Below, one piece after another: positions 9,690 to 35,873 of a stretch of 64,000 bases of DNA. The position numbers and the translations under genes were made by a program. Where the stretch lies: the NCBI RefSeq assembly GCF_024345575.1, contig NZ_JAGQBJ010000002.1, forward strand, positions 62,001-126,000, in the 5' to 3' direction. The stretch is from Cyanobium sp. Morenito 9A2. Lineage in GTDB: Bacteria; Cyanobacteriota; Cyanobacteriia; PCC-6307; Cyanobiaceae. Numbering within the stretch: position 1 is the stretch's first letter; each line of letters opens with the position of its first letter. The notes beneath the pieces are model-generated. The model was not told the DNA's origin. It ran no database searches and worked only from the letters and a program-made list of their open reading frames with translations.

Positions 9690-10067
9690 TGAGGGTGCGC
9701 CGCCAGGGCCATGGTGGCGATCTGCAGGGATGGGGCCAGGGGCGGAGCAGCTGCAGCTTCAGGCTCCAGACCCTGCCGGTGATCAGTTCCTCCGCCCAGG
9801 CCAGCTCCAGGTCCTGGCCCTCCAGCCTCTGCGAAGCGTCAGGCGGCACGGTCAGCGGGGCGCGAAAGAGATGGGCCACGCGCTGGTCGTTTCTTGGCCC
9901 GAGCCGGTGGGTCAGCTCCCTGGCGTGCCAACAGATTGCCTTGAGCCACGCGCGCCGCAGGGCCTGCTCGGGCGCCCGGGGGCGACGATGCCAGGGGTGT
10001 GATCGCGGAGCCGCAGCCACCGGCGGCCCTGCCGCTCCAGCCTAGCGATCGCCACTACGAGGCCCAT
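9690..10067 (-). pseudogene. possible frameshifted conserved hypothetical gene
   Basis: The 426 bp between the VIT gene and the next small gene hold no intact long gene. On the minus strand an ATG at 10,067 starts a frame (MGLVVAIARLERQGRRWLRL) that ends at 9912. A second frame overlapping it continues with protein-like text such as RAWLKAICWHARELTHRLG from about 9985 to 9700, but has no proper start or stop of its own. The two together look like one gene broken by a one-base indel near 9970-9990. I do not recognise the family, and the call rests on amino-acid composition only. Confidence 0.3.
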
Positions 10068-10083
10068 CGCTTCGGAACCCCCC

Positions 10084-10305
10084 TCAACCCACCGCGCCTT
10101 TGGTTGCCCCTGGCAGGGGGGGCGGGGGCGAGGGCTGGAAGATCGGCATCAGACTGCTGATTCCAAGCATCACGAAGGAGAGCGCGCCCACCAGGGCCAG
10201 GAGCCGCAGACCCAGGGGCCTGCCCCGGTCAACGGCGCAATCATCGGGATCCACCTGGGGAGGCAGCGGCCCGCGCCCCTGGGGCGATTGGGGGTGGGGT
10301 GCCAT
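10084..10305 (-). CDS. small single-helix membrane protein
   Basis: A 73-residue protein with a charged, proline-rich N-terminus and one transmembrane segment (LRLLALVGALSFVMLGISSL, about residues 33-52) followed by a proline-rich tail. The size and helix pattern are like small hypothetical proteins common in Synechococcus and Cyanobium. ATG at 10,305. Function unknown. Confidence 0.5.
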   Translation of the reverse strand: MAPHPQSPQGRGPLPPQVDPDDCAVDRGRPLGLRLLALVGALSFVMLGISSLMPIFQPSPPPPLPGATKGAVG

Positions 10306-10523
10306 GGGCGTAGGGGGTCGGCTGTCTCAAGCTGCGGGCGGCCCCTAGCCTGACAGAGCCGATTGGGCAGGTCTGGCCCGCGCCCGGGGCCGTTGAACAG
10401 GTCAGTCTCGCGGCGCCGCCCGTCGAAAGCGGGACGTCCATGCCTGGCGGAAGAGGCACGTCCATGGACCCGACAAGCGCTTCCACCCCTCAACGGATGT
10501 CCGATCGGGCTTGAGCTTGGCCC

Positions 10524-16600: not shown

Positions 16601-17413
16601 TCAAGTGACGGACTGCAAGAGGCCCTGCTGGATCAGGCGGTCGAAGTGGTCCCAGACATCATCGGCATGGGTGGCGCTACTGAGATGAAGGCCGAGCTCA
16701 AAGTTGGAAAGGTTGGCCGCATCGGTGAGGTTGGCGCTAGTCACGAGTAACTCTTGATCAGCCACCACCGCCTTAACGTGACAAACAGCTTTAACTCCAT
16801 CAAGAGATAAAGAGCGGGGATCGAAGTACACGGCTGGAGCAGGCAGCTCGGGCCAGAGGCACAACCAGGTCTGCTGTTGAAATTTGCGGAGGAGGGTCTC
16901 TGGACTGGAGGTATCACCGCGATCACGCTGGATGTTGCACACGATGCGCACCTGAAACTCCGGCAGCGTCACCATGTGCTCACGGATCAACTGAAATAGG
17001 CCCTTGATGAACGGGCCTTTGTAGAAGGCATAGGTGGTCAGAAGCAGACGGTGTTCGGCGCGCTCCACCAATTGACGGATCAACACCGACTGGTCGCGGG
17101 TGATCGACCCTGGGCCCGCATCAGGGCCTGACCACACCAGTTCAATCGAACGGGCGGCAACACTGCTGTGCCGTTGGGCCAAGAGGGCTTGAACGGTCAT
17201 GAGCAGGGCCTCCTGGCTCCCCCCGGCAGATCGCCAACCCTCCAGCCACAGCATCAGCGAGACAGGGTCTTCGGCAAGCCCAACTCTTGCCAGTAAAGCC
17301 GAGGGATCACCAAGGCCGGCATCCAGGGAGGCAGGTTCGCCAACGCGTGGATCCAGGGCCACCAGCAAGCGTTCAAGTTCAGCGGTACTCAGATTCGGGA
17401 ATGGCGCCGCCAT
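16601..17413 (-). CDS. drmC: DISARM protein DrmC (phospholipase D-like)
   Basis: A 270-residue protein of the phospholipase-D superfamily with one HKD motif, HVKAVVADQELLVTSANLTD (about residues 213-232), and an N-terminal helical region. DrmC is the dispensable PLD-type component of DISARM. It starts with an ATG that shares one base with the drmB stop (TGATG), so it is translated directly after DrmB. It is the last gene of the minus-strand locus; convergent ArdC remnant DNA follows 70 bp later. The gene is intact. Confidence 0.9.
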   Translation of the reverse strand: MAAPFPNLSTAELERLLVALDPRVGEPASLDAGLGDPSALLARVGLAEDPVSLMLWLEGWRSAGGSQEALLMTVQALLAQRHSSVAARSIELVWSGPDAGPGSITRDQSVLIRQLVERAEHRLLLTTYAFYKGPFIKGLFQLIREHMVTLPEFQVRIVCNIQRDRGDTSSPETLLRKFQQQTWLCLWPELPAPAVYFDPRSLSLDGVKAVCHVKAVVADQELLVTSANLTDAANLSNFELGLHLSSATHADDVWDHFDRLIQQGLLQSVT

Positions 17414-19335
17414 CAGGCACGATCCGGGAAGAAGGCCGCGTCTTGCTGGCTCAAGGTGGGCAAGACAAGGGCCCGATCGAGAAATTCGTTACGGCGCTCA
17501 CAGCTGGTTTCAGCAATCAGCAGACAACCATGACAAGCGGCGCCATGGGCGTAACGCTTCTCCAATTCATTATTAGGTTCGTGGCTGGCGCAGAAAGGAT
17601 CGTTAGAGCACAGTGAGGCTCGCTCAAGGGCCATCTCCAGCAGCTCATCAATGCGATCAGCCAACGCCACCAGGCCACCCAGTGAACCCTCGGAACCGCT
17701 GCCTCCGGTGAAGAGGAGGATGCCATAGCCGATATCATCGAAGGAATAGATCCGTTCTTTGATTGCTGAGGCGCCATAGCCGCAATCAAGAGCAGCTTCT
17801 GTGATCAGCAGATGGGCGAGGCTATGGAGCATGAGGTAGGGGCCACCTGGCCATTGGAACTTCTCCTCGGTGAGGCCGTGCTCTTTGTTCCAGGTCTGGA
17901 AGGCATCACGATGCTTGGAGAGGTGCTGAACCGCGCCATCGCTCTTGCACCACTCACGAATTGCGCCGCGATCGAAGCCGAGGAAGATCCCTTCGCCGAG
18001 ATTTTCCACAGCCGGTAGCCAGGTGGCTTCCTTTAGATCGATCTGTGCACGCTTGACGCCCAAGTCAAGGGGATCACCATCGATCTGGCTGACCACCGGC
18101 TCCAGGCGGGTGAAACCGAGCTGGGCCATCACCTCTCGCAGCTGGTGCACCTTCAACACCCGGTTGATGCGCTGATGGAACCAGGTTGGTTTGCCCGCCA
18201 GATCAAGGAGCTTCGCCTCAAAGCGGCTGCTGCCCTTGCCGCGCTGCAGCCCCTCAATGGGGCCGACCAACGCCCAAAGCTCCTGTCGTTTGAGGGCCTC
18301 GGTTTTCTCCGGTACTCCCGCACCACCACGGATGGACTCAAGGGCTTGGAAGATCAGATCGGGCGTTTCTCCCGCCAGTGGTTCCTTGATGTGATCGGGA
18401 GCGTAGTCCTCCAGCCAGTCCTTGAGCTTGGCGACGCTGGTGATCTTTTCAAAAATCTTCAGGTGCTTGCTGATCACCTCCCGCACCGCATCGATTGATT
18501 CGGGAATCGAAATGGCCGAGATCAACTCAGGGAAGTAGACATTGCTGGCGGAACGCACCAGCAGGCGATTGGCGTAGCTGCCTCCCTTGCCCTTGCCGTT
18601 GTCACAGGTTTCCCGGCCGAAGGGACCGAGCCAGGGCCGGTGGCCCTGACAAAACCGAAGCGCAGGCCGCTCGTCCTCATCGCCTTTGAGCTTCTGTTTG
18701 GCCTCTGAGAGCTGACGGCGCCCCCACTTCTCCAAGCAGTCAGGGTTGGAGCAGCGCACGAAGATCTCGGTGAAGTCGTTGCCGGCGCCAGCCTCATCCA
18801 GCCAAAGCGTGGCCCGGCAGGTGGTCTTGCCGCGATTCACAAACTCGCGCCAGTCGATGTCGCTAAGGTGTCCATTGGGGCAGCTCTGAACAAAGCGCAC
18901 CGGCACGACGCTATGGGCCTTGCGATCGGCATCGACGTACTTGCGTTTGTCGAGCCGGTCAGCCTCCACCAGGGGGCGACTGCGATAGGACTTGTCAGCA
19001 AAGATCTCTGTTTTGTCCAGCTGGGCCACGAACCAGTTGGGGAACTCGGGGCTGCGGATCCCACCCGGACGGCTCTGGCCTCCTGGGCCAACGTCGTGGA
19101 TGGGTGGCTTGCGCAACCGCAATGAACCAACATTCAGGCTTTGGCGGAGCTTGGCGATCAACCGGGGTTCATCGATCTCCTCTGGAGGTTGCTCAGGGCC
19201 GTAGAACCAGAAGTTGAGGCCGCCGATCACGATCGAGCAATCCGGCAGATCGACCATGGCGCCAGGGCCATAGGTGGTGATCAACTGGCTGTGGCGTACC
19301 TCTCCCTGGGGGCGCACGGACGGTTGACGGGCCAT
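17413..19335 (-). CDS. drmB: DISARM protein DrmB (DUF1998)
   Basis: A 640-residue protein with the DrmB start VRHSQLITTYGPGAMVDLPD, two cysteine pairs in the middle (CPNGH, CSNPDC) and the C-terminal DUF1998 region LMLHSLAHLLITEAALDCGY followed by a last zinc-binding set CSNDPFC...CHGC near residue 600. DrmB binds the DrmA helicase to form the core DISARM complex, which loads on unmethylated DNA ends. Start and stop both share one base with the neighbouring genes (TGATG at 19,335 and 17,413), so the trio drmA-drmB-drmC is coupled. The gene appears intact. Confidence 0.94.
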   Translation of the reverse strand: MARQPSVRPQGEVRHSQLITTYGPGAMVDLPDCSIVIGGLNFWFYGPEQPPEEIDEPRLIAKLRQSLNVGSLRLRKPPIHDVGPGGQSRPGGIRSPEFPNWFVAQLDKTEIFADKSYRSRPLVEADRLDKRKYVDADRKAHSVVPVRFVQSCPNGHLSDIDWREFVNRGKTTCRATLWLDEAGAGNDFTEIFVRCSNPDCLEKWGRRQLSEAKQKLKGDEDERPALRFCQGHRPWLGPFGRETCDNGKGKGGSYANRLLVRSASNVYFPELISAISIPESIDAVREVISKHLKIFEKITSVAKLKDWLEDYAPDHIKEPLAGETPDLIFQALESIRGGAGVPEKTEALKRQELWALVGPIEGLQRGKGSSRFEAKLLDLAGKPTWFHQRINRVLKVHQLREVMAQLGFTRLEPVVSQIDGDPLDLGVKRAQIDLKEATWLPAVENLGEGIFLGFDRGAIREWCKSDGAVQHLSKHRDAFQTWNKEHGLTEEKFQWPGGPYLMLHSLAHLLITEAALDCGYGASAIKERIYSFDDIGYGILLFTGGSGSEGSLGGLVALADRIDELLEMALERASLCSNDPFCASHEPNNELEKRYAHGAACHGCLLIAETSCERRNEFLDRALVLPTLSQQDAAFFPDRA

Positions 19336-22300
19336 CAGCTCACCTCACCATCGCCATCGGGGCGTTGGCGGATCAGAGCAGCGCTGGGTTCCACATCGCG
19401 CAGGCTCCAGTTGGCCAGGAATTCCTGCTGCATCGCCTTGAGTTCCTTGAGATCAGGATCGAGGGGGGTATGAAGCAGGGGTGCCAATTCCCCCTGCTCC
19501 CGGCCGTACTGGAGGAGGCCGTCGTTGTCACGGGCGATGCGGATCCACTTGTCGAGCAGGTTCATCACCTTCTTGCACACCTCAGCCTCGGTGTGTTCGC
19601 TGAGTGCCTTGCTTGGAGCTGAGCGGCGGGCGCGATCGGCGAGCCGCTGGGCTACTTCAGTCTGGATGGCACTGATGGCTTCATGGCTGCCGGCATCCTT
19701 GGCCCAGGTGAGCTGCGGGCTGAGATGCCGGGCCAACGCCACCGTGATGGCGGGCAGCCCCCGCTCCAGGGCTCTGGAGGACCAGGGCGTGACGCTGGTG
19801 GCCTCCACATCCCGATAGAACACCGAATGCCAGAAGCTGAAGCGCTCGTAGTGCGATCGATCGCGCGGGCGGTTCGGATTGAGCAACACCACCACCAGGC
19901 CAGGGCGTTGGTCGTCGCGACCGACGCGGCTGCTGGCCTGGATGTATTCGGCGGTGGTTTTGGGCTGACCCAGCATCACCATCAGCCCGAGGCGGGTGAT
20001 GTCAAGACCTACCGAGATCATGTTGGTGGCAAGCGCCGTGTCGACGCGTTGCTTCTCGTTATCGAAGCTGAGCTCGAGCCGGGCCTTGGTGGTGCTCACC
20101 TCCGAAGTGGGTACCCGTGAGGTGAGCTCCAGGGGCTCATTGGCAATCTTGCGGCGGGCATAGCGCGGGCTGGTTTCGTTGAGGCGGCGGCGCTGGTCGT
20201 AGGTGGTGAGCTGGGAGGTGACCTCCTCTTCCAGCAGGCGGCGGGTGATGCCGAGCTCCTTGATGGTGTTGAAGTACCCCAGAAACGTCATGTAAGGGTC
20301 GACGGGGTTGGGACCCCTGGGTTCACCGCGCTTGTCGCGGGCCCTTCGCTCTTTTTCGGCCTTGGCATAGAGCTTCTGGGCCGTGCTCATCAGAGCCAGG
20401 CCCACCCGCAGCAGCAGGGCTTTGATGTTGCGGCCCTGGGCGGACACTCCGAGGTAGAGACGACCCTCTGCTTCTGATGTGGGGGCTGTGTAGGAGAAGA
20501 AGGAATCACGCCGGTCGGGGCCGGGGGCCGGGAAGACGGCCGGTGTGCTGCTGCGGCCGAACAAGGCCTGCATCTGCTGGGTGGCGCGGCGCACGGTGGC
20601 GGTGGAGGCGACGATCTTGGGCTGCACGACTTGAGGACCGTTGGGAGTCTCCACCTGGCGGGCGCAGAGCTCATCAATCACAGCTTCATAGAGGCCGCCC
20701 ATCGAGCCGAGCGGGCCGGAGATGAGGTGAAGTTCGTCCTAAATGATCAGATCGGGGGGCTCCAGGCCGCCGGCCAGCGGTTGACCGCCCATGTTGGCGC
20801 CATCGCTGGGGCCGAAGAAGCCCTTGCCCGGCTGTGCATGGGAGACGCGGCCAAACAACTTGCCGGTGGCCCCCACCCAGGGCAGCGCGGCGAACTTGTC
20901 GACCGTGGCGATCACGAAGGCCGGCAGCCGCTGATAAAGCATTTCATCGACCGCCACCAGGGGCAGGGTGCTGTCTCCGGAGAAGCGGCACTGGCGGTTG
21001 CGGCAGCAGACCCGCAGCTCGCTCGGGTGATCGGCATCAGGGAGCAGACGGAACACGCCGCGCACCACAGCGGGGCGCTCATCAGCCAGGGACGCCTTGC
21101 CGAGCTCGGTGCCGCACCAGGGGCAGTTGTCGATCGGGATCGGTTTGTTGTCGCCACCGCTCCAGGCCAGCACGCGGGAGCTGGCACTGTTGTCGTCGCC
21201 ATCTCCTTTGTGGCCGAGCTTGTTGGGGGTGCCGCTCTGCCCCACCCACAAGCCGATCTCGAAGGGCCACTTTCCGAGCAATTGGGGATCCTTACGGCGC
21301 TCCAGCTCCAGCGCGCAGATCAAGGTGGAGGCCCGGCCGAGCTGATCAAGGGTGAGCAGGCGCAGGGTATAGCGCATCAACACGCTCATGCCGGCCGATT
21401 CGATCGAGCCCTCGTGGCGCAACCGCCGCAGCACCAGGGTGTAAGCCGCCAGCCCCAGGTAAGCCTCAGTCTTGCCACCGCCGGTGGGAAAGAACAGCAG
21501 ATCGATGGTGTCGCGATCCGCATCGGTGAGCTCGGCCATGCCCACGAGGTTCATCAACAGGAAGGCGAGCTGGAACGGACGCCACTGGGGCTGCTCAGCC
21601 TTGGGGTCGCGGCCCCGCATCACCCCGAACCGCTGGCGTGCAGCGGCATCCATCACCCGATTGGCGATGGCAAAGGCCAGTCGCACCCTCTCGTTCTCCA
21701 GAGCTTCAATGCCGCGCTCAATGCGCCGTGCCTGCTTGCTCGCCTCCTGCAGCAGCTCCGTGGCCGTGGCCTGCTGCTGCTTGCTGAGTGAGGCCGTCTG
21801 GCGCTGCTGGTGGATCCAGTCCGTGTAAGCCCGCAGCAGGGGGCGCCGCAGAGCCGCCTGCACAGGCTCAGCCCCTTCACTGGCCAGGCGATCCAGCTTC
21901 GCCATCGAGAGCACCAGGCCGGCCTCCTCCAGTTCTGCCACCCTGGGCAGCACCTTCTCCACGGTGGCCTGGGGCAACCAGGTGGTGCTGATCAGCTGGC
22001 AGCGGCCAGCGGCATCAATCTGGGGCGCCACGGAGATGTTGTGGCCCACGGCGAATTCGTGGTCGTCGCGGTAGTGGAGATTGTTGACGCGGTGGTCCCA
22101 GTCATTGGCGTTGGCGAGCCGATCAGCGGCGCGGGGATCACGGCGCGCCAGGAAGCCAGAGGTGCAAGCCAGATCCAGCTGCACCTGGAAGGCACTGGCG
22201 CGGTCGCGGTCTTCTGCGCTGCGTCCTTCGAAGCGTCGTTCGTTGGTGAGTAACAGGCTCACGGCGACGGCGCCGGGGGGATAGCCCTGATCGAGAGGAG

Positions 22301-22889
22301 CAGCCCGCAGGTGCCAACGGAGCATGAGCCCTTCGCTGCCGGGCACTTCCCTCGATTCAGCAGAGCGGCCGCTGAGGGTGAATAGCTCGGCAGGGAGGCT
22401 GAGTGGCTGCTGGTGGGGCTCACGTAACCAGGCCTCTTCCGCCTTGCTGTCTTCCGGCGGGGCGGTGGGCCGATAGCTGGCCCAGTGCACCATGACCTCC
22501 AGACCTGCACCTGCCGGCAACAGCAGGCTCAAGCCAACGGAACAAGGAAAGAACACCCGCCGCGCGGGACCAGCTTCGCTGGCTCCGGTGTCATCGGCGC
22601 TTGCGTTGCTTTTGCGCTTGGAGCTGAGGTTCTGGCCATCGAGGCCAGCGAATTCGTCGTCGGCCGCATCATCGGCGCGGGCGTCGAGGCTGGTTTCGCT
22701 GGGGATGAGAAAACCGCTCTGGTACCAGCGGTTGGGAGGGCGATCGAGCAGCTCCTCGCGGAGCTCAGCTGCCTCGTCGGTCTGGCCTTCGGCTTCCAGC
22801 TGCTCAAGGACTGCCGAGGTAGGGCCCAAGAGATCGAGGGTGAGGGCCTGAATCAGCTGGCTGCGGGTGGTGGATGAGATAGTCAACAC
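19335..22889 (-). pseudogene. drmA: DISARM helicase DrmA interrupted by an in-frame amber codon
   Basis: The frame from GTG 22,889 to 19,335 is 1,185 codons and continuous except for TAG at 20,739-20,741 (codon 717). The first part holds a degenerate N-terminal domain and Walker A FFPTGGGKTEAYLGL (about residue 468). The amber sits in DLII-stop-DELHLISGPLG, directly before the Walker B/DELH box, where relatives have Gln, so a single CAG-to-TAG change explains it. The second part holds the motif III region (VASTATVRRATQQM), ATNMISVGLDITRLG and QASSRVGRDDQ, the C-terminal helicase half. Without readthrough no functional helicase is made. An internal ATG at 20,702 has no visible ribosome site. 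The gene follows vapC with a single base between. Confidence 0.92.
20739..20741 (-). other. premature amber codon in drmA
   Basis: TAG replaces the Gln codon that precedes the DELH motif. Frame and protein similarity are unbroken on both sides, so it is a point change, not an indel. Confidence 0.9.
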
Positions 22890-24437: not shown

Positions 24438-26156
24438 CTAATGTGTCTGAAGAAACTCGTTCAGCCGCTCAGCGATCAACCGCCTCCGCTCCGCCAGGAA
24501 AGCCTTGTACCGCTCAACGGTCAGGACATCGGGTTTGGTGGGGATGCACTGGCTCTCAAAGGGCTGTTCCCCATTGGCCACCCGCACCTCAGGGAAGTAG
24601 AGAGCCGGTTCCTTGGTACTGATCTTGCGGTTGGCCTTGCCGCTGATGAAGGCGAGGTTGGCGATGTCGTCGGTTTCGCGGCTGGTGACGCTGCTCTTGA
24701 GAACAGCCTTGGGGAAGATGTGGTGGAACTGCAGCTGGTGGGCGTTGCCCACATGGCCAAGAGCGATGACCAGGTTGGAGCGCCAATCGCGGGCACCGGC
24801 GGCCTTGAAGGCCAGGAACATCGTCTTGAACAGGGCACTGCGCTGATTGCGGCCTTCCTGCTCATCCGGGGTGACATCCAGCCGACCCACCTGCGTGCGC
24901 AGCCGATCGAGCAGCTCCTGGAAGCCTCCGCCATCGCGCAGGATCTTGAGGTCCTGGTCGAGCAGGGTTTCGCTGGATCCACGGCTGTAGCGGCCCTTGG
25001 CATTGGCGAGCAACACCCAGCGGCGCAGGCCCTGCGCTTCATCGGCGCTGAGCTTGTAGCTTCGCTGGGCCCCGTAATAGCCCAGGCTGATCAGCAGGAA
25101 CGGCGAGGCCAGTAAGGCTGGGCTGGTGATGCTGGCATTGCTGCGCAGGAAGTTGATGGCGAACTCCATGCCGCGGCAGCCGTCATCCCAGCCGGCCTTC
25201 AACGCATCTGGCGTGAGACTGGCCACGGTGAGAAAGCGGGACTGACCGGTGACGTGGGCAACCAGATTCTTGAGGTGCAGGCCGAGGTCGAGTTCGAAAC
25301 CGTCTTTCGTGCAATCGGACTGGAAGGCCTGGAAAACCTTCAGGGAGCCACGCCACTTGGCGGTGATCTGGGCGAGAGCAAGATCGGAACTACGAAGCTT
25401 GGCACCCAGGGAGTTGACTCGCACGAAGATCTCAGTGAATTCGTCGTAGGAGAGGGTGCGCTCCAGCACATCCATCCGGTAGATGTATTTACGGATGTCC
25501 TTTAGGCGATTGAGACGTTGGGTGTAGATCTCGGCGCGTGGATCATCGAGGCTCGTGATTCCAGCTCGTCTGAGGAAGTAGTTGTTGTCATTCTTGCCAG
25601 TAAATACCTCGCTGACCTTCACCCACTGGGGCAGCTGCTCGAGTTTGCGGGTGCCCACCACGAAGGTCATCTTGTCGAAGCGCTTCTGCAGTTCATCTTC
25701 TGAGGCATCGGCTTCCTCGTCGGTGGGCTCTTCCTCGTCTTCTGTCATCTCGAGAGCGTCGATGTTGTTGTCGTCAACCTCGGTGATGAAGGAGAGCGTA
25801 TCCGGGTGCTCGAGGTTGAAGAGAAGCTCGATCGGACGGACGCGACCGTTCACCTGAACGGGTTCGCCGCGGATGACGGCCGAGAGGGAGGTGAGACGCT
25901 GCTGACCATCGAGCAGGAGCTGGGTTTTGGCGTAGGGATTGGCCTACTGACCAACGGAAAAATCCTGCTGCGGAACAATCTCATCGGTTTCCCAGATCAG
26001 GATGGCGCCCGAGGGATAGCCGCGATAGAGGGAATCCAGCAGATCGCGCACGCGGGTGGAGCGCCAGGCATAGCGGCGCTGCATCTCCGGGAGGCGCAGC
26101 TCACCGCGCTCGATCTTGCTGACGAGTTCCTCGACGGTGGCTTCGGCTTTGGCCAT
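24438..26156 (-). pseudogene. DUF262-HNH (GmrSD-like) restriction gene with an in-frame amber codon
   Basis: A 573-codon frame from ATG 26,156, broken only by TAG at 25,944-25,946 (codon 71). Before the amber: VEELVSKIERGELRLPEMQR and YPSGAILIWET of DUF262. After it: LLLDGQQRLTSLSAVIRGE, the ParB-like DGQQR motif of DUF262, and near the C-terminus LQFHHIFPKAVL with NLAFISGKANRKIS, an HNH domain. DUF262 plus HNH is the architecture of GmrSD-type enzymes that cut modified phage DNA. The amber lies between FSVGQ and ANPYA, so restart would lose the first 70 residues. It starts 4 bp after hepT. Confidence 0.85.
25944..25946 (-). other. premature amber codon in the DUF262-HNH gene
   Basis: The protein pattern continues in the same frame across TAG (FSVGQ-stop-ANPYAKTQLLLDGQQR), so a point mutation or recoding, not an indel. 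Confidence 0.85.
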
Positions 26157-26160
26157 GGGA

Positions 26161-26517
26161 TCAGCTGGATTCCTGATTCAGTTGTTGCAGTGCTTGGGCG
26201 CAGTGCTGAACGAGCAGAGGAAGATCTGTCTGGATGGCACCCCAGACAATGCGATCGCTCACGCTGAGGTATTCGTGGGTTAACAGGTTGCGGAAGTCGA
26301 TGATCTGGCGGCCCTCCGGGATTCGCTCGAACAGCTCGGGAGCTCTCTGGGAGATCACCCTGAGTGCTTCGCCGATGATGATGAACTCGCGCTCCACCGC
26401 CGAGCGGATCAGCCGGTTGCTTCCGTAGGTCTCACCATCGACTCCCACGGTCGCTGCCTCGATGGCGGATGCGGCTTCGAGAATGTCGTTGAGGTAGGCG
26501 CGGGGATCACGCTGCAT
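26161..26517 (-). CDS. hepT: HepT-like HEPN-domain toxin (DUF86)
   Basis: A 118-residue helical protein with the HEPN ribonuclease motif R-x4-H in [12 protein letters not shown] (about residues 79-90) and the typical start [18 protein letters not shown]. HepT toxins cleave RNA and are silenced by AMPylation from a MntA partner. The ATG at 26,517 lies inside the end of the nucleotidyltransferase gene (11-bp overlap), and the stop is 4 bp before the DUF262 gene. Confidence 0.88.
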
Positions 26518-26818
26518 AGATTTCCTGCTTGCTGGCCTCGATCGACGCTTTGACGTAGGGATTGCGCACGGCATCAGCCATCACCAGATCAACGCGCGAG
26601 GCCAGACCAAGGCGCAGATCGTTGAGGAGTGCGAAGTAGGCCTTGTAGAGACTGGAGGGATCGAGTTGCTGGAACTCCACCAGCAGGTCGATGTCGCTTT
26701 CACCAGGCCGATAATCTGGCCGCAGCACCGAGCCGAACACATGCATGCGCTCCACATGATGCCGCCGGCAGGCGTCAGCGATGGCTTCCAGCTGGGTCTG
26801 GGCAAGGGAGAGGGTCAC
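26507..26818 (-). CDS. mntA: MntA-like nucleotidyltransferase antitoxin
   Basis: A 103-residue minimal nucleotidyltransferase with the catalytic pattern [20 protein letters not shown], in which GS is followed by the D-x-D pair that binds metal and ATP. The family AMPylates the Tyr near the HEPN motif of HepT. It starts at GTG 26,818, overlapping the end of the drmMI frame by 4 bp (GTGA), and overlaps hepT by 11 bp, so the pair is translationally wired into the DISARM operon. Confidence 0.87.
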
Positions 26819-29800
26819 AACGCCAGACCGATCTGCTCGGTTTGCATGGGTTCAGTCTCGCCCAACTGGCCGGCCTTGCCAGGTCGGCCTCGGCGTTTGG
26901 CGGCGCCCCCAGCACTGGCTGCCTTCTTGGCCCCCTTGCCCTGCAACCCCAGCGCCACCTCTTGGGCGTACCGCTCGGCGTTGAGGGCGAGCAGCCGAGC
27001 CAGCACGTCGTCACGCACAGCCTCAGGCCAGCGGTAGCGCCAGGGCAGCTTGCGGCGGCCGGTGATGGCGCCGTAGGCCTCCAGCTGGCCCTGGAAATCG
27101 AGGGCGTCGCCTGCGTCCCAGAAGAACAGCTCGCCGCTGTCGATGCGCTCCTGCAGCTCCTCAGGGAGCTGGATGTCTTCGTCGGTGTCGAGGTAATCGA
27201 GGCCGAAGCCGCAGGCGGTGGGAACATCGCTCCATCCATAGGCGTTGAGCGCTGCCTGATCCATCTCGCCGTGGAGGCGGCGCAGCTCCAGCAGGCCGGG
27301 GCTCGTTTCGGTGGGATCGTGGAAGCGATTGTAGGTATAGGTTAGGCCTTCATCGCTGGCTACCATCAACTCAGCACGGAACTGGTAGTAGTGCTCACCG
27401 ATGACCTTGAGGGCCTGACATTGGCCCTGAAAAGGATGAGAAAACGCTGCGATATCGAGCAAGTTGTCGGGGAATGGGAAGGTTTCGAAGCAGTCTTCTT
27501 GCCCGTAAACATGGCGCTCATCTTGTGTCTTACCAAAACGGATAGACAATATTTCATGTATCATTGACTGAAGTAGGGCAAAGTCACTATAAAGCGAAAT
27601 TAGCGAAATAATTATAAACCTATTCGTAAACACCATATCAGAAGGAAGAATCGCAAAACTTATGTGACTTGTAACCTGCGAGATCGCTAAAACCCGTTCT
27701 TTCCTGCTAATTGCTTCGTAAAGGGCTGGCGTATACGTTCCATATTGCCACCAGCAGGTTTTTCGCCGTATTGCGATTGAGTACTCCCCCTGAATGGACT
27801 CCCTCATTGGCTTGACGCGATCGCGAACGATTTGCAAAAGTGCTGGCCAACTTTCAGCCTCTTGGAGGTTCATATCTTGAAAGCAGATTGCATATCGCTA
27901 AGACTTTAGGGTTGGACTACTGTTTAATTCTTTTCCTCCAATGAGTGGTCTGAGAACATGAGAAGTACTGCTATCACTTCGCAGCAATGTTCTTGCTCCT
28001 TCTAGGGGCCAGCATTCTCATCGGTCGGATCATCTTTGAATACAAAGCCGTCACCATACAGAACGCACCCTCTAAAGGATCTTCCTGCGTTCACACTTGA
28101 TCTACAGGATTCTTGCTCGATTGGCGTGGGGAGAAGGTATGAGTTATAGACGTCTAATTCTTCTGCGCTGGACTGCTTTATGATATGAACCACGCTGACA
28201 CTAACTGCGGCAGAGCCAGGCCAAGGAATCTTTTTGGTAGCGTTATATATAGTGCCTCCTTGCATGACAATCTGCTTTAGGCCTGCCAGCCTGCTATCTC
28301 CTTCTGCAACGGTGCTAGTCGCAATCAATCCTAGGCATCCACCAGTATTCAGCGCCACAAAAGATTGTCTGAAAAAATAACAACACAGGTCGACCCCTTT
28401 CCCGCCTCCTTCTTTGAAGTGACTACGCAGCCATTCTGGGTATAGATCACCCAGAATGGGGTGAATCTTATTGCCACCCAAGAAGGGTGGATTGCCAACG
28501 AACACATCAAAGCCAACCTGCCGGCGACTGAATACATCGGGAAACTCCAGTTGCCAGTGCAGCGGTGTGATGCCCTTCTCGCCGTCGCGCAGCCGCTTCA
28601 GCGGTTTCTCCATCACCGCTTCCAGCTCAGCAGCATCTGCGGCCGACACTGTTTCGGCCAGGTAGATCTTCTGCAGCTCCTCGCGATCTATGGGCTTGCT
28701 GCCGTTGAAGAAGGCCGCCACCAGTAGATCGCCGGTGGTGCGCAGAAAGGCGGTGCTTGCCTGCAGCTGGCGCAGCGCCTGGCGTTTGTGGTCGGCGTCG
28801 GCGTCGCTGCGGCTGTCGGCATGGAAGAGCTCGAAGCCTTCATGCTCCTGCTGGCGCAGATCGCGTAGCTGGCCTTCCCACAGTTCGCGTTGCTTGGCGG
28901 CGCCCTTGAGTGCCGCTTCGATCTCGGCGCGGCTCACCCCCACCAGGGAATCGCCGCACTTGAGGGCGTGATCCACAAACGTGAAGGGCAGCTCCTTGCT
29001 GAGCGTCACCAGCCAGAGCGAGAGCTTGGCCAGGTTCACCGCAAAGGGGTTCTTGTCCACCCCATACAGGCAGCGCTGGGCGATCAAGTGGCGGGCGTAG
29101 AGGTCTTTGTCCCACTCCTTCCTGAACTCCGTCGAGAAGCCCGGCCCACCCGGTGCCTCCCAGGCCGTCACCAGCCAGCCGGCCAGAAAACGGCAGACGG
29201 CCACCAGGAACGCCCCCGAGCCCATCGCCGGATCGCACACCTTCAGAGCCAGCACCTGTTCGGCGGAGGGCTTGCCGTTGCAACGCTCCAGCCAGGGCCG
29301 GAAGGCCTCGGCCACGATCGGTTCGGTGAGGGCGCGCGGCGTGTAGTGGCTGCCGCTGCGGCGGCGCTCCTCGGTGGGCTGCAGCACCAGGCTGCCCGCC
29401 GGCAGCACCCGTGGCGTGTGGTGCGACAGGCGTTTACCCAGCGCTGCCGCCAGATTCTCCTGGCTGGTTGCCTCTTTGAGGGCTCGAGCAATGGGAGCGG
29501 CCAGTTTTAACTTCACGCCCGCTTGCTCATCCAGCCAGTTCGCCCGCTTGGCAGCCGCTTGGGCGAGCAGATCATCGGCGTTCACCACCACCGTGATCGT
29601 GATCTTCTGGCGTGGCGGCCGGTGGGTGATCCCCAGGCTGGGCCCGCTCGCACACTCCACCTTGAAGCCCATGATCCCCTCGTAGACCGAGCCGATCTGC
29701 TCCACATCCAGCGCCCGATAGTTGAGGATCTGGCCGCCCAGCACCAGCAACTTGGTGAGCACCTGCTCCACCACGTCATCGCTGATTGCCGGCACCGCCT

Positions 29801-30995
29801 CGATTGGGTCGTCGGCGTAGTGGCTGCCGGCGGCGCGGCCCTCCAGGAACGGGTAGGCATTGGGATCGAACAGCTCGCCGTGGCGGGCCGGCAGGTAGGC
29901 CCGGGTGGGTCCGCCGCCGTCGTACACCAGCCGGAACAGGCTCAGCAATCCGGCCCAGGCCCCACGGCGCCCCTCCATCTGTCCCTGATGTTCGTCCTTG
30001 TCCTGGCGCAGACGCAGCGCCAATCCGCTGACGCTGTAGTGCTGGCCGTAGAGGGAATCACCCGGCATCAGTTCTTCGTCTTCGGCGTAGAGCAGGAACA
30101 CCAGCCGCAGCAGCACGGTGATCAGGCCGCCGTAGATGTGATCCGGTTGATCCCTGGGAAGATCGCCCAGCACAGTGCGGTTGTTGTCTTTGGCCTGCCG
30201 CTCCGCGGCATCGAAGCCCTCCACCAGAATCCACAGCGCCTCCAGCACCTGCTCGGCCAGGCGCGTGCTCACCTCGTTCTGCTCCTTACGGCTCGCCGCC
30301 ATCAGCGGCTTCAGGCGGGTGGCGCTGGAGCCGCCTTCAAACAAGCGATCCGGGCCCAGCAGCATCTGCAGGGCGGCGAGCATCGGCCGGCCGTCCACCG
30401 TGGTCATCGGCTCCAGCGGGAAGCTGAGGTGGCCGCTCGATTCCCCCCGCGGCGCGACCACCAGCCGCAGGGCCACACCATTCCAGAGCAGCCCGATCGG
30501 GTGCTCGCTTTCCTTCAGCAGCCGCTCAAAGCGTTGCTGCGGGGAAGCCATCCACTGGCGGCGGCCATCGCCCCCCTTCGCGATGGCGTCGAAGTCGGTG
30601 CCGATCGGCAGTTCCTGCACCAGCAACTGGGCAGTCCCTTCGGGATCCTTCACCACCCAGGTGGGGATCAGGGTCTCGTCGTAGTCGTCGAGAGGCACCG
30701 CAATCGGCTGCTCCAGGGCCGAGGCAGCCAGCAGATCGTCGGGTTGCCAATCGAGCAGCTCCGTCGCGAACGCCTCGAAGCTGGGGGCCACGCTGGCCCA
30801 CTCCCCCGTCTCGGGCAGCTGCTGGTCTTGCAGCAGCTCCTCCAGCCGCCGCTGCCAATCGGCCAGCACCGCTGTAGCGCTCTCGGGGAAGATTCCCAGG
30901 CGGTTGAGCACCACCGGCTCCACCACCAGGCCCACGGGGTTGGCCATGCCCTTCCACTCCTCGTGGGTGTGGATCCCCGGGGGACGCGGACGCAT
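26815..30995 (-). pseudogene. drmMI: DISARM adenine methyltransferase DrmMI with a frameshift and an amber codon
   Basis: The first frame (ATG 30,995 to stop at 28,002, 997 residues) contains an N-terminal helical part, SAM motif I DPAMGSGAFLVAVCRF at about 588 and catalytic NPPF at about 835, the signature of N6-adenine methyltransferases. Its last text is GDGFVFKDDPTDENAGP. The next base shift opens a frame reading LLRSDSSTSHVLRPLIGGKE, the expected continuation, until TAG at 27,898-27,900. Past this amber the same frame continues with RYAICFQDMNLQEAESWPAL to 26,815, including KTCWWQY and DCFETFPFPDNLL of the target-recognition region. Two independent lesions therefore separate the catalytic domain from the recognition domain. 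DNA from about 27,480 to 28,460 is markedly AT-richer than the remainder. Confidence 0.9.
27898..28008 (-). other. two lesions in drmMI: frameshift (28,002-28,008) and amber (27,898-27,900)
   Basis: At a CCCC run the original frame hits TAG at 28,002-28,004; reading one base back restores similarity. About 34 codons later an in-frame TAG interrupts PTLKS-stop-RYAICF. Both lie inside the AT-rich patch. A sequencing error in the C-run could explain the first but not the second. Confidence 0.82.
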
Positions 30996-31028
30996 CAGGG
31001 CGCTTCCTCCGTCGCAGCAGCACCCCAG

Positions 31029-31062
31029 CTGCAACCGTTCTGGTTGCAGAATGGGTGCACCC
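31029..31062. promoter_or_regulatory. operator-like dyads between drmMI and the divergent vapBC
   Basis: The 84 bp between the divergent starts of drmMI (30,995) and the vapB-type gene (31,080) contain CTGCAACC-gttct-GGTTGCAG (31,029-31,049, perfect 8-bp arms) and the palindrome GGGTGCACCC (31,053-31,062). Ribbon-helix-helix antitoxins bind such sites. The same site could influence drmMI. Confidence 0.5.
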
Positions 31063-31079
31063 GTCGCGGCGTGTCTGCC

Positions 31080-31328
31080 ATGGCCAGGAGCCTCACCCTC
31101 AAGAATCTCCCGGACGCGTTGTACGAACGCCTGCAGGCGTCGGCCCAGCAGCACCGCCGCAGCCTCAACAGCGAGGCGATCGTTTGCCTGGAGAGCGTGC
31201 TGCAACCACCCACGCTCACTGCCGCCGTGCGGCTGGAGCAGCTGCGCCAGCTGCGGGCCACCCTGCCGCCTGATGCGGTGTTCGAGCCCGGTGAGATCGA
31301 CGCCTTCAAGCGCGAGGGCCGCCCGTGA
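31080..31328 (+). CDS. FitA/VapB-type ribbon-helix-helix antitoxin
   Basis: An 82-residue protein. Residues 4-40 (SLTLKNLPDALYERLQASA, HRRSLNSEAIVCLE) match the Arc/MetJ-like ribbon-helix-helix of FitA antitoxins; the tail AVFEPGEIDAFKREGRP is the toxin-binding arm. ATG at 31,080; its last 4 bases overlap the toxin start (GTGA). It is on the + strand, opposite to the DISARM genes on both sides. Confidence 0.87.
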   Translation: MARSLTLKNLPDALYERLQASAQQHRRSLNSEAIVCLESVLQPPTLTAAVRLEQLRQLRATLPPDAVFEPGEIDAFKREGRP

Positions 31329-31738
31329 TCGTGGTGGACACCAACGTGGTGGCCTACCTGCTGCTGCGCGGGCCACACACAGCCAACGCCGAAGCGCTTC
31401 TCGCCCGCGATCCCGAGTGGGCGGCCCCAGCCCTGTGGCGCAGTGAGCTGCGCAACGTGCTCGCCGGCTATCTGCGGCGCGGCACCCTGAGCCTCAGCCA
31501 GGTGCTCGCTCTGCAGAGTTACGCGGAAGATCTGTTGGCGGATCAGGAGGTGCCGGTGAGCTCCTCCGAGGTGTTCCGTCTTGTGGCAGCCAGCGATTGC
31601 AGCGCCTACGACTGCGAATTCATTGCCGCTGCCGAGACCCTCGGTATCCCTCTGGTGACCAGCGACCGCCAGCTGCTGCGGGCCTTTCCTGAAATCACGA
31701 TCCCGCTGCATCAGGGCAGCTCCAGCGGCCAGAGGTAG
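31325..31738 (+). CDS. vapC: VapC/FitB-type PIN-domain toxin between drmMI and drmD
   Basis: A 137-residue PIN nuclease beginning IVVDTNVVAYLLLRG (catalytic Asp5), with WRSELRNVLAGYL (Glu near 41), SAYDCEFIAAAETLG (Asp near 95) and VTSDRQLLRAFPE (Asp near 115), so all four acidic positions are present. It starts at a GTG overlapping the antitoxin. Its 3' end overlaps the convergent 3' end of drmD by 28 bp, suggesting the pair was inserted tightly into the locus and that the two transcripts can interfere. Confidence 0.87.
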   Translation: MIVVDTNVVAYLLLRGPHTANAEALLARDPEWAAPALWRSELRNVLAGYLRRGTLSLSQVLALQSYAEDLLADQEVPVSSSEVFRLVAASDCSAYDCEFIAAAETLGIPLVTSDRQLLRAFPEITIPLHQGSSSGQR

Positions 31739-34700
31739 ATCGCCCCCGCCGGCTCGATCCTCGCTGCGGTGCTCACTTCGAACGTGCGGCGGATGGCGTG
31801 GGGCTCCACCTCCAGATCCCGATCGATGCGGGCCAGCCGTTTCTCCCAGTGGTTGCGGTTTTCACGCAGCTGCCGCAGTTGCGCTTGCTCATCGGCTGCA
31901 AAGCCAAAAGCCAGTTGCTCACTGTCTGAATCGTGCTTCGTTTTGGTCTTGAGAATCCGCTCGCGCTGCTCCTGCAGCACTTTCACGAAAGCTGCTGCTT
32001 CTGCGTCGGCCCTTTGACCCAGCCGGTCCTTGAGTTGGGCCACATCGGCCGGCAGCCCCAGGCGCAGCTGTTGCTGCACCGCAGGGCTCGCAGCAGGAAG
32101 TCGTTGCTGCAGGCTCACCTCCAGGTCGGCAAGGGCCCTATCGGTCTTGGTGGCGTTGAGCGCCCGCAGCCGGCGCGCGGGATCGGCAGGATCCCATTCG
32201 GCCACCAGCTCAATCACCTCATCGTGGAGACGCGCCGCGCCATGGCCGTAGAGCGACAGACGGGCGAGAAGAATAAGTTTGGCGGTGTCGTCGCCCGTGG
32301 TGATCACCGCCGCCCGGCTCAACTCATCGGTCTGGAAGCCGCGCACCAGAAAACGGTTGAGCAACCGCTGCACCAACGGGTGCTCCAGGTGCAGGTGCAC
32401 CCGATCGGCATTCACTTCCTTCGGGTCCTTGAACACAACCGGTTGCGGTGTGGTCTCACGCCGCCAGTCCCATAGCTTCTGGCCGGGTTGTCGTGGCGGG
32501 CGGAGAGCATCAAGGACATCGCCCCAGCTGTGTTCGCCGCCGGGAAGCTCCTTGGCGCTGGGGAAGATCCATTCCGCCCGGTCGGGATCCTCCCTGGCCT
32601 TGGCTGCATCTTTCGGCCGCAACTGCGGAATGGCGTCGGCGTCTTTGGCACTCACCCGCAGGCTGGTGTTCAGCGCATCGCGGAACAGCTCGCTGCTGAA
32701 GTGCAACCAGTCTTCCGACTTCTGCAACGCCTTCTCCAGCCGGCTGATCTGGGATTTCAATTCTTCGGTTCGCACGCGGCTGTCTTCCAGCTCCACGCTC
32801 ATCAACGCCTGGGTGCGTTTGAAGCCTTCATCCTGATCCACGCCCCCGATCTCCGCGATCATCGCTGCAATGGTTGTGGGGTTGATCCCCTTGGCCAGCA
32901 GCTCGTTGAGCTTGCCCACCACCACCGGCGGCAGCGATCCCAGCGCAGAGCGGATCTCCTCGGTCTTCCTCACGAGCACATCCAGCACCCGATCTTCCGG
33001 TCGTTGGGGCAGAACGAAGTAGTGGCAGTACACCTCCGGTGAGCGCTGCAGGGTGCGGTCGATGCGGCCATTGCGCTGCTCCATCCGCCCCGGGTTCCAG
33101 GGCACATCGAAATGGAAGAGGTAGCGGCAGTGGTTCTGCAGATTCACCCCCTCCCGTGCCGCATCGGTGGCGATCAGGATCCGCAGGGGGTCGAGATCCG
33201 GTGGGCTGTTGAAGCTGCGTTTGAGCGCTTCGCGCTTCTCATCGCCGATGCCGCCATGGAAGGTGGCGATCCGCTTGGCCTCGAGGTCGCTGCCGGCGAT
33301 CAGGCCTCGGAGTTGCTCCTCCAGCCAGCGCTTGGTGTCGGCGTACTCAGTGAAGATCAACAGCCGCTCGCCATTCCAGCGGGCGCCCTCCTGGCCCAGA
33401 TCGGGGCAGAGGTGGCGGCGGATCCATTCGCGCAGGTAACCGATGCGTGAATCGGCCTCGAAGCGGGCTCGTTTGCTGATCGCGTCCATGGCCTTGAGCA
33501 GCTCCCACTCCTGCTCCCCAGCAGCCAGGCCTGCCGTGGCCACAGCCAGGCGATGCTCCTGATCGGCCTCCTCCAGCACGCTGTCTTCATCGGCATCGGC
33601 CCGTTCGTCGTCTCCGTCGATCCCCTGTTGCAACAGGTCCAGCCGTTTCAGCTGCTCCGTGTGGTTGACGCTGCGCAGCGGCTGGGCCTGCTCACGGCGC
33701 CTGAGGGTGTCGCTGTGCACGCCCAGGGTGCGGTGGAACGCCTCCACTGAACTGAGCAGGCGCTTCTGCAGGTTCGTCACCACCAGCAGCTCCGCGGCCC
33801 GTTGCCTGGTGCCGGCCCCCTTGAGGCGCTCTTCCCGGCTCGTTCGGTAGTGCTGCAACAGCTCCGCGAGCTTCAGCTCGGGGGTTTCGGCGGCCAGGCC
33901 ATCAAGCACCACCGGCACCACGTTGCGTTTGGGCAGATCCACGCCGATCTGGCGCAGATCCTCCTTGAGACGCCGCACCAGCACCGGCTCGAGATCCGCT
34001 TTGCGCACGCTCACACCACGGCAGAACCTGGTGGGATCGAGGATCTCCAGCAGGGCCGAGAAGCTGTTGCTGTGCCCGTTGTGGGGCGTGGCCGAAAGAA
34101 ACAGCTTGTGCTCGAACCGCCAGGCCAGATCCCGCACCGCCCGGGTGAGCTTGGAATCAATCGCGTACTTCGAGGCGCTGGCCGGAGCCGCATTGTGCGC
34201 CTCATCGAGGATCAGCAGCGAGCGCGCGCCATCACCCAGCCAGTCACGCAGGGGGCCGGCGTAGTCCTCGTTGCGCACCAGCGCCTGGCTGAGGATGAAG
34301 CGGGTATGGGTCGCCCAGGGGTTGATGCCCCAGCCTCGTTCGCGCCGCATGCGGCTCACGTAGGCCCGGTCCATCACCGCAAAGCCCATCCCGAAGCGGC
34401 TTTGCATTTCCCCCTGCCACTGCAGCACCACCGATGGCGGCGCCACCACCACCACCCGCTGCACCTTCTGGCGCAGCAGCAGCTCCCGCATGATCAGCCC
34501 GGCCTCGATCGTCTTGCCCAGGCCCACGTCATCGGCGATGAACAGGCTCACCCGCGGCATCCGCAACGCCTTTCGCAACGGTTCCAGCTGGTAGGGCTTC
34601 ACGTCGATGCCGGCCCGCAACGGCGCCTGGAACAGGCCCGGATCGGTGCTGGTGACGCAGTTCCACTGCAGGGTGTGCAGGTAGCTGGAGAACACCCGGG

Positions 34701-34953
34701 CGTCATCGAAGCCCCGCTGCCCCACCGTGTCCCAGGTGCTCTCGCCCAACACGCGGGCATCCACTTCCCGCTCCCACAGCACCTCCAGCACCCGGCCATT
34801 CACACCGTCATCCAGACACGCCATGCGCACGACGGTGTCAGCGCCGTCCTCTTCCGACGGCCGCACATCCTCCACGAGGTGATTGTGGGTGCGGCAGTAG
34901 ACCACGGCACCAGGCTTCGGTTTCAGGTGATCGCTAGCTGAAGTGGCCGTCAT
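31711..34953 (-). CDS. drmD: DISARM SNF2-family helicase DrmD
   Basis: A 1,080-residue SNF2-type ATPase. Walker A ADDVGLGKTIEAGLIM is at about residues 140-155, the DEAH box in LLILDEAHNAAPAS at about 255, then SATPHNGHSNSF, and the C-terminal helicase part with LIATDAAREGVNLQ and MEQRNGRIDR (motifs V and VI). The long charged C-terminal region is as in DrmD. DrmD defines class 1 DISARM together with DrmMI. The frame stays open far upstream, but ATG 34,953 is the family start; it overlaps the DUF4268 stop by 4 bp (ATGA). The gene is intact. Confidence 0.94.
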   Translation of the reverse strand: MTATSASDHLKPKPGAVVYCRTHNHLVEDVRPSEEDGADTVVRMACLDDGVNGRVLEVLWEREVDARVLGESTWDTVGQRGFDDARVFSSYLHTLQWNCVTSTDPGLFQAPLRAGIDVKPYQLEPLRKALRMPRVSLFIADDVGLGKTIEAGLIMRELLLRQKVQRVVVVAPPSVVLQWQGEMQSRFGMGFAVMDRAYVSRMRRERGWGINPWATHTRFILSQALVRNEDYAGPLRDWLGDGARSLLILDEAHNAAPASASKYAIDSKLTRAVRDLAWRFEHKLFLSATPHNGHSNSFSALLEILDPTRFCRGVSVRKADLEPVLVRRLKEDLRQIGVDLPKRNVVPVVLDGLAAETPELKLAELLQHYRTSREERLKGAGTRQRAAELLVVTNLQKRLLSSVEAFHRTLGVHSDTLRRREQAQPLRSVNHTEQLKRLDLLQQGIDGDDERADADEDSVLEEADQEHRLAVATAGLAAGEQEWELLKAMDAISKRARFEADSRIGYLREWIRRHLCPDLGQEGARWNGERLLIFTEYADTKRWLEEQLRGLIAGSDLEAKRIATFHGGIGDEKREALKRSFNSPPDLDPLRILIATDAAREGVNLQNHCRYLFHFDVPWNPGRMEQRNGRIDRTLQRSPEVYCHYFVLPQRPEDRVLDVLVRKTEEIRSALGSLPPVVVGKLNELLAKGINPTTIAAMIAEIGGVDQDEGFKRTQALMSVELEDSRVRTEELKSQISRLEKALQKSEDWLHFSSELFRDALNTSLRVSAKDADAIPQLRPKDAAKAREDPDRAEWIFPSAKELPGGEHSWGDVLDALRPPRQPGQKLWDWRRETTPQPVVFKDPKEVNADRVHLHLEHPLVQRLLNRFLVRGFQTDELSRAAVITTGDDTAKLILLARLSLYGHGAARLHDEVIELVAEWDPADPARRLRALNATKTDRALADLEVSLQQRLPAASPAVQQQLRLGLPADVAQLKDRLGQRADAEAAAFVKVLQEQRERILKTKTKHDSDSEQLAFGFAADEQAQLRQLRENRNHWEKRLARIDRDLEVEPHAIRRTFEVSTAARIEPAGAIYLWPLELP

Positions 34954-35873
34954 GGTTCTCCCTGGATCGTGGCTTCCAGAGCCTCCACATAGGCCTGCAG
35001 CCGGCTGACAAGCCAGGCCGCCAGCTCGGGCCAGGTGGTGGAATCGCGGGCATCGGCCTCCAGCGATTGAGAAAGCCCGTAGCCGTCGCCGTCGCTGATC
35101 GGCGCGCCCAACCGCTGCTCGAGCTCTTGCTGATGCTCCAACAGCACGTCCCTTGACTCCTCCAGGGATTGCCCGCGCCTGCCGCGCACGAAGATGCCGC
35201 AGCGGTACACGGAGATGTAGGCCACCACCACCAGGCTGCTGTTTTTCAGGGGATGCCAGCGGGAGCTGGCCGCGTCCGCGGGGCCCCACTGGGCCTGGTC
35301 GGGGTAGAGCTCCAGCAGCTTGCTCCAGAAGGCCAGCCGGAACTGGCCCAGGGCGGAGAGCTCACCTGTTTGCGAGGCCACCTGCTGCTGCAGCTTCCGG
35401 TCCCAGCCGTTGGGTTTGGCCACCACCTCGAACAGAGGGGCGATCGGTGAATCACCGATCCGTACCGCCTTCACCTGCACCGCGACGAACGCGAAGGGAT
35501 CAACGGTGTGATCGTTCAGCCAGTGGACCGCCGAGAGGTGGGGGTCGCGGAAGTCGCTGGCGATCCAGACAATCACCTGGGCCTCCAGGCCCGCCAGGTA
35601 GGTGAGGATCTGACCCAGGTGGTTGTGGTCGGTCTGCTCAAGCTGGTTCTCGATCAACACCAGCGAGCCGTCCTGGGGGTTGCGCGCCAGCAGATCGGCG
35701 TAGAAGGAGCCCACACTCACCTCCTGGCCCTCCAGCTCCAGGGGGATGCCCAGGGCGGTTGAGAGGCGATTCAGGTTTTCCGCCAGCCAGGGGGTGAAGC
35801 TCAGGGCCTCATGGGCCCAGGCCTGTCGCAGGTCCACGGTCTCCAGCTGGCCCAGGCAGGGGATCTCCGTCAT
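34950..35873 (-). CDS. DUF4268 / PD-(D/E)XK-nuclease-like protein heading the DISARM locus
   Basis: A 307-residue protein. The N-terminal part shows a restriction-fold pattern, SFYADLLARNPQDG followed by LVLIENQLEQTDHNHLGQ (Asp, then Glu-x-Gln), at about residues 57-90; this is the PD-(D/E)XK-like domain usually joined to DUF4268. The C-terminal part (about 185-290) is the DUF4268 domain. It is the first gene of the minus-strand unit and overlaps drmD by 4 bp, so it is co-translated with the DISARM helicase. It is not one of the canonical DISARM components. ATG 35,873 gives the normal family length. Confidence 0.85.
   Translation of the reverse strand: MTEIPCLGQLETVDLRQAWAHEALSFTPWLAENLNRLSTALGIPLELEGQEVSVGSFYADLLARNPQDGSLVLIENQLEQTDHNHLGQILTYLAGLEAQVIVWIASDFRDPHLSAVHWLNDHTVDPFAFVAVQVKAVRIGDSPIAPLFEVVAKPNGWDRKLQQQVASQTGELSALGQFRLAFWSKLLELYPDQAQWGPADAASSRWHPLKNSSLVVVAYISVYRCGIFVRGRRGQSLEESRDVLLEHQQELEQRLGAPISDGDGYGLSQSLEADARDSTTWPELAAWLVSRLQAYVEALEATIQGEP

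Follow-up and report, generated by a model that had tools for sequence, protein, structure and literature searches.

A class 1 DISARM locus lies on the minus strand of the window, by which we mean the whole 64-kb stretch of DNA analyzed here, and it raises the question of how its methyltransferase gene, drmMI, came to be interrupted within an AT-rich patch, and what became of the locus as a whole. We consider it highly probable that a specificity cassette was exchanged by recombination and that the DISARM locus around it has turned into a pseudo-locus.

The host genome (3.1 Mb, 26 contigs, 99.8% complete) has named close relatives in Cyanobium and Synechococcus. The genes run drmD-drmMI-(accessory)-drmA-drmB-PLD (Table 1), with PADLOC matches for all four core genes (drmD, drmMI, drmA and drmB), and this order is identical in about 20 relatives, among which the accessory genes lying between drmMI and drmA vary. 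In the window these are an MNT/HepT pair, a DUF262 gene, an HNH-endonuclease-like gene (a likeness by eye, without a Pfam match) and a PIN gene. The pair, an MNT nucleotidyltransferase and a HepT-like gene (26,161-26,818, minus strand), adjoins drmMI downstream and is apparently open. Two small family genomes of 1.5 Mb and about 35% GC (L013/L065 and L014/L066) carry a complete DISARM with no accessory genes at all between drmMI and drmA.

Table 1. Features of the DISARM locus, in coordinates of the window; residue numbers refer to DrmMI.
Feature	Position	Strand	Evidence or remark
PLD-domain gene at the drmC place	16601..17413	-	PLDc_2 8e-8
drmB	17413..19335	-	open; PADLOC DrmB 1e-75
drmA	19335..22889	-	TAG-interrupted; PADLOC match
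Accessory DUF262 (GmrSD-like) gene	24438..26156	-	TAG-interrupted; 92% to L086 N-terminus, stop inside the match
drmMI pseudogene, DISARM adenine methyltransferase	26815..30995	-	PADLOC DrmMI 8.8e-267 / 1.1e-68 (two halves); relatives
Conserved DrmMI C-terminal part, common to both backbone clades	26815..27354	-	69-82% to most relatives of both clades
AT-rich block	27316..28510	-	46.5% GC; change-point fit, likelihood ratio 121
MmeI-type target recognition domain (Pfam PF20466), residues 986-1162	27466..27996	-	profile match to read-through
Recognition-domain hypervariable core, residues 1060-1150	27502..27774	-	19 types in 24 alleles
In-frame TAG of drmMI within the recognition domain	27898..27900	-	frame reading and relatives
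Frame loss of drmMI, GGC CCC TAG	28002..28010	-	family text resumes in -1 frame
NPPF catalytic motif	28482..28493	-	upstream edge of the cassette exchanged in relatives
Clade-B-type part, residues 660-805, normal GC	28536..28973	-	78% to L019, 45% to L031
Clade-A/clade-B crossover interval, residues 649-674	28931..29006	-	last clade-A and first clade-B diagnostic residues
Clade-A backbone, residues 1-640	29031..30950	-	87% to L031; window plus clade A, support 100/100
drmD	31711..34956	-	open; PADLOC DrmD 1.6e-295; 88% to L031

Lesions in drmMI and its neighbors

The drmMI gene, whose start codon was inferred through the THEEWKGM region conserved among relatives, has the features of an MmeI-like gamma N6-adenine methyltransferase: the SAM motif DPAMGSG, the NPPF motif and an MmeI_TRD domain. 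The last was matched (E=4.9e-9, 36.3 bits against a cut-off of 27) by searching the read-through translation with X at the lesions. From what is known of the family, DrmMI of a class 1 DISARM would methylate the host's own DNA, at a site set by this recognition domain.

The catalytic open reading frame (28,002-31,376, minus strand) terminates in DENAGP* at 28,002-28,004, after a CCCC near 28,005, and from 28,005 the -1 frame reads LEGARTLLRSDSSTSHVLRPLIGGKELNSSPTLKS*RYAICFQD, which is continued family text up to the amber codon, just as the first-pass annotation had described it. The frameshift falls just ahead of MmeI_TRD and the TAG within it. This region is a single open reading frame in 24 of the 25 near-full-length relatives, the other one (L003) stopping elsewhere, at residue 741. 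Two neighboring genes are also interrupted: drmA by a TAG at 20,739-20,741 (minus strand) in DLII*DELHL, where four matched clade-A relatives have Gln, and the DUF262 gene by a TAG at 25,944-25,946 (minus strand) in FSVGQ*ANPYA, where Gln likewise stands in four relatives. All three nonsense codons of the locus are amber, and the lesions come to four in three genes, three of them being substitutions and not homopolymer indels. A class 1 DISARM has all its core genes intact; here drmMI carries a frameshift and a TAG, and drmA a TAG. With drmA and the DUF262 gene broken as well, we read the lesions as ordinary decay that affects the whole DISARM locus, beyond the patch. The open drmB and drmD count against this reading of locus loss. 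A working DISARM is most likely absent from the cell at this locus.

It is unlikely that assembly or sequencing errors created these lesions, in which case the frame loss at the C run and the TAG codons would be artefacts and the locus intact. The frame loss does sit at a short homopolymer, any single lesion could be an error, and some metagenome-assembled relatives have broken DISARM genes too (L003/L034, L090 and L091). However, a single locus has accumulated four lesions spread over three genes, and three of the four are substitutions. This argues against such errors, as does the state of the assembly (99.8% complete in 26 contigs). Moreover, several genes outside the locus that are common to the genus mate G169 are full-length, which argues against a generally poor assembly.

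Other family members also carry broken DISARM genes. L090 has a frame loss and stops in drmD, L091 frame changes in drmMI and drmD, L092 a deletion inside drmA, and L034 a stop in drmMI. In L094 (2,857-4,032), drmMI ends after about residue 400 and is followed by unrelated genes, while the upstream drmD is full-length.

The uniform use of TAG, with family text resuming behind each of the three codons, brings to mind programmed recoding, in which amber suppression and ribosomal frameshifting would let full-length proteins be made. This is extremely improbable. Three TAG codons out of three are not unusual, the chance from codon use alone being 0.20-0.27, and among the 40 tRNA genes found none has the CUA anticodon of an amber suppressor, so amber suppression was discarded. 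A programmed frameshift was also rejected, as the frame loss lies outside any canonical slippery heptamer and is absent from every relative.

Mosaic structure of drmMI and its AT-rich block

When drmMI was compared with its counterparts in 25 Cyanobiaceae relatives, residues 1-640 separated into two deeply split backbone clades with about 50% identity between them, the window falling in clade A. The next part, residues 660-805, is of clade-B type, and grouping the window with the clade-A gene L031 was rejected there (AU p=1e-46); for this part we took the L031 test in place of that of 'window plus clade A' (AU p=0.28), which is not informative because the tree is unrooted and the window may join it on the branch between the clades. 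The crossover interval falls where the sequence is highly conserved. In the cassette, which extends from NPPF through the recognition domain, the window pairs with the clade-B gene L017 (58%, support 100/100), and monophyly of clade A was rejected (AU p=8e-28). Thus, as expected of an exchangeable domain, backbone and recognition-domain phylogenies conflict (AU p=8e-28 and 1e-46), while drmD and drmA of the window are, by identity, still of clade-A type. These trees and identities show the window's drmMI to be a mosaic, with its front from clade A, its middle of clade-B type and its cassette an AT-rich minority allele. The first-pass annotation had proposed domain replacement by recombination and a comparison of the halves split at NPPF; no homogeneous tree emerged, and the different phylogenies of the parts, in trees and AU tests, strongly support the proposal.

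The AT-rich block (46.5% GC against 65.3% in its flanks by the change-point fit) is the lowest-GC stretch at its length within the window, and GC at third codon positions drops from 79-86% upstream of it to 43-46% inside. It also appears in the 200-bp GC profile suggested at first pass, and both drmMI lesions lie in it, as had been claimed. The same annotation had the block covering the start of the recognition region; cover that region it does, but it spans the post-NPPF methyltransferase domain and the entire Pfam MmeI_TRD.

Could the block be the ordinary composition or codon use of a recognition domain, with no exchange involved? The recognition domain proper (residues 1001-1190) has 45-60% GC in all high-GC relatives, and a GC dip at this domain occurs in other cyanobacteria as well. 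Low GC in all relatives, the finding that was to speak against replacement, therefore holds for the recognition domain proper; it does not hold for the stretch just after NPPF, which is AT-rich in minority alleles only. For residues 830-1000 of high-GC genes, the common cassette family (n=15) has 56-65% GC versus 46-51% in the minority alleles (n=8, window included), with L027 intermediate at 52% (common versus minority, Mann-Whitney p=6e-5, the alleles being not fully independent). In addition, the trees of the parts conflict strongly, and composition alone does not yield 78% clade-B identity at residues 660-805. We regard the no-exchange reading as very improbable, refuted as it is by the AU tests, with composition still a partial cause of the low GC. 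AT-rich cassettes are present in 7 of the 22 intact high-GC relatives. Because these minority-allele genes are intact, low GC marks the minority allele and partly the domain, and not decay. The idea of a decaying foreign patch has accordingly been dropped, the lesions being locus-wide.

Under the preferred reading, that of a recombined cassette in a pseudo-locus, the order of events can be narrowed. Both drmMI lesions are inside the imported cassette and must therefore have arrived with it or later, which makes it plausible that the switch preceded the loss. The locus probably lost function with or after the cassette exchange. To this extent the initial suggestion of a specificity switch followed by loss stands; it had placed the loss in the patch, but the breakage extends to drmA and the DUF262 gene. 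In a relative-rate count with one outgroup pair, in which L017 may itself be recombinant, residues 825-980 have 16 window-specific versus 3 L017-specific changes (binomial p=0.004), an excess that fits relaxed constraint; residues 1060-1165 show no excess (8 versus 6).

As to the origin of the cassette, a close donor was sought and discarded: its nearest relative among 399 genomes of the order is L017 (genome G038) alone, at 58-60%, and in 386 genomes of the phylum the best identity is about 40%. One IMG/VR scan revealed no viral carriers, and the near-matches in plasmid DNA consist of one 280-bp stretch, 72% identical and annotated as drmA. The corresponding region of the genus mate G169 has undergone rearrangement, and a clean empty site was not found there.

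Cassette exchange among intact relatives

The exchange reaches beyond the window. The genes L003 and L028 are 50-52% identical in the backbone versus 81% in the cassette, and L015 and L026 are 50-52% versus 77% identical. In the former pair, DNA identity rises abruptly past NPPF, from about 60% to 94%, which gives the exchange a sharply defined boundary within conserved sequence; the window's own copy has a less distinct one. Conversely, L021 and L024, both with an intact drmMI, have a common backbone but different cassettes. Within the recognition domain, the hypervariable core, whose types were counted at a 55% cut, varies even inside the common cassette family, and five of the six pairs that share a core cross the two backbones. 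In alignment with MmeI, the bulk of this core corresponds to the C-terminal recognition subdomain, where the majority of the recognized bases are contacted (PMC4833311). Judged from these alignments, drmMI of the Cyanobiaceae is shown to combine a slow-changing backbone with a recognition cassette that recombination has moved between backbones; the cassette starts just past NPPF and ends with the recognition domain. A broader proposal, for which we see the balance as even, is that recognition cassettes, many of them AT-rich minority ones, move freely among DISARM backbones that diverged deeply, with drmD and drmA remaining in place. DrmAB would then tolerate nearly any self-methylation sequence, and diversifying selection would act on that sequence.

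Exchange could also take place within a genome, with silent cassettes recombining into drmMI as a reversible specificity switch whose off phase we would now be seeing. There are precedents among type I S genes, and one relative, L086, has 5' and 3' remnants of another drmMI around an intact one. Nevertheless, we give this virtually no chance: a search of the window's own genome for a second cassette gave one match only, so an alternative cassette was not found, no extra piece of drmMI occurs in the window or in most of the 20-kb loci of relatives, and the lesions in drmA and the DUF262 gene would stay unreversed.

The arrangement in L086 (Cyanobium sp. FGCU6) deserves a description of its own. 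Pieces of the other copy lie at 10,015-10,335 and 686-2,566, those upstream of the intact gene covering residues 47-154 and those downstream consisting of several 3'-end pieces behind a DUF262 gene, as though a drmMI copy had landed within or next to an older one. In other relatives (L002/L033, L032, L005/L035, L008 and L010/L090), the contig ends within drmMI, at residues of about 690-980, near the cassette; strain variation in the cassette could have disrupted assembly there.

Comparison with known systems

The gene content and order of the locus and its strong PADLOC matches are those of class 1 DISARM; with drmMI and drmA interrupted, the window holds a remnant. The structure of DrmAB has been reported, and DrmAB was proposed to recognize methylation status independently of any particular sequence (PMC9142583). 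Our trees and the intact relatives show modular exchange of the part of the DISARM methyltransferase that carries specificity, and this bears on how the proposed sequence independence relates to sequence-specific self-marking methylation. If many cassettes work with one type of DrmAB, self-recognition would be set by methylation state and not by sequence. The matched pairs of intact genes L003/L028 (the stop in L003 aside), L015/L026 and L022/L025 allow a direct test of this. The copy in the window, being a fossil, carries less weight individually.

Restriction-modification enzymes are well known to swap domains. We found no description of recognition-cassette exchange in DISARM in the open papers searched. 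DrmMI resembles MmeI and type IIL enzymes in that a gamma-class N6-adenine methyltransferase domain carrying NPPF precedes a recognition domain of MmeI type (profile match to 5hr4, 7.8e-23 over MmeI 463-823); wide diversification of recognition domains is known for the MmeI family (PMC4833311). Unlike MmeI, DrmMI belongs to a multi-gene system, and the clear match is limited to the methyltransferase and recognition domains, the model of the MmeI N-terminal (nuclease) domain scoring under its Pfam cut-off. In type I and III enzymes, recognition-domain exchange is established (PMC3983042, PMC10273834). Those of Helicobacter pylori, like DrmMI, have recognition domains that recombine between backbones at conserved flanks, and many of their recognition genes are truncated; however, the exchange there includes intragenic site-to-site movement and is tied to methylomes, whereas here it occurs between genomes and is read from sequence (PMC3983042). 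BREX BrxX/PglX is a related methyltransferase whose recognition domain is its most variable part, although it serves a different system and only its methyltransferase domain aligns by sequence (PMC11842806). Finally, Cutibacterium acnes DSM 16379 also has a DISARM remnant with a broken drmMI, disrupted by a 32.5-kb insertion (PMC7365801), whereas the locus described here carries point lesions in several genes.
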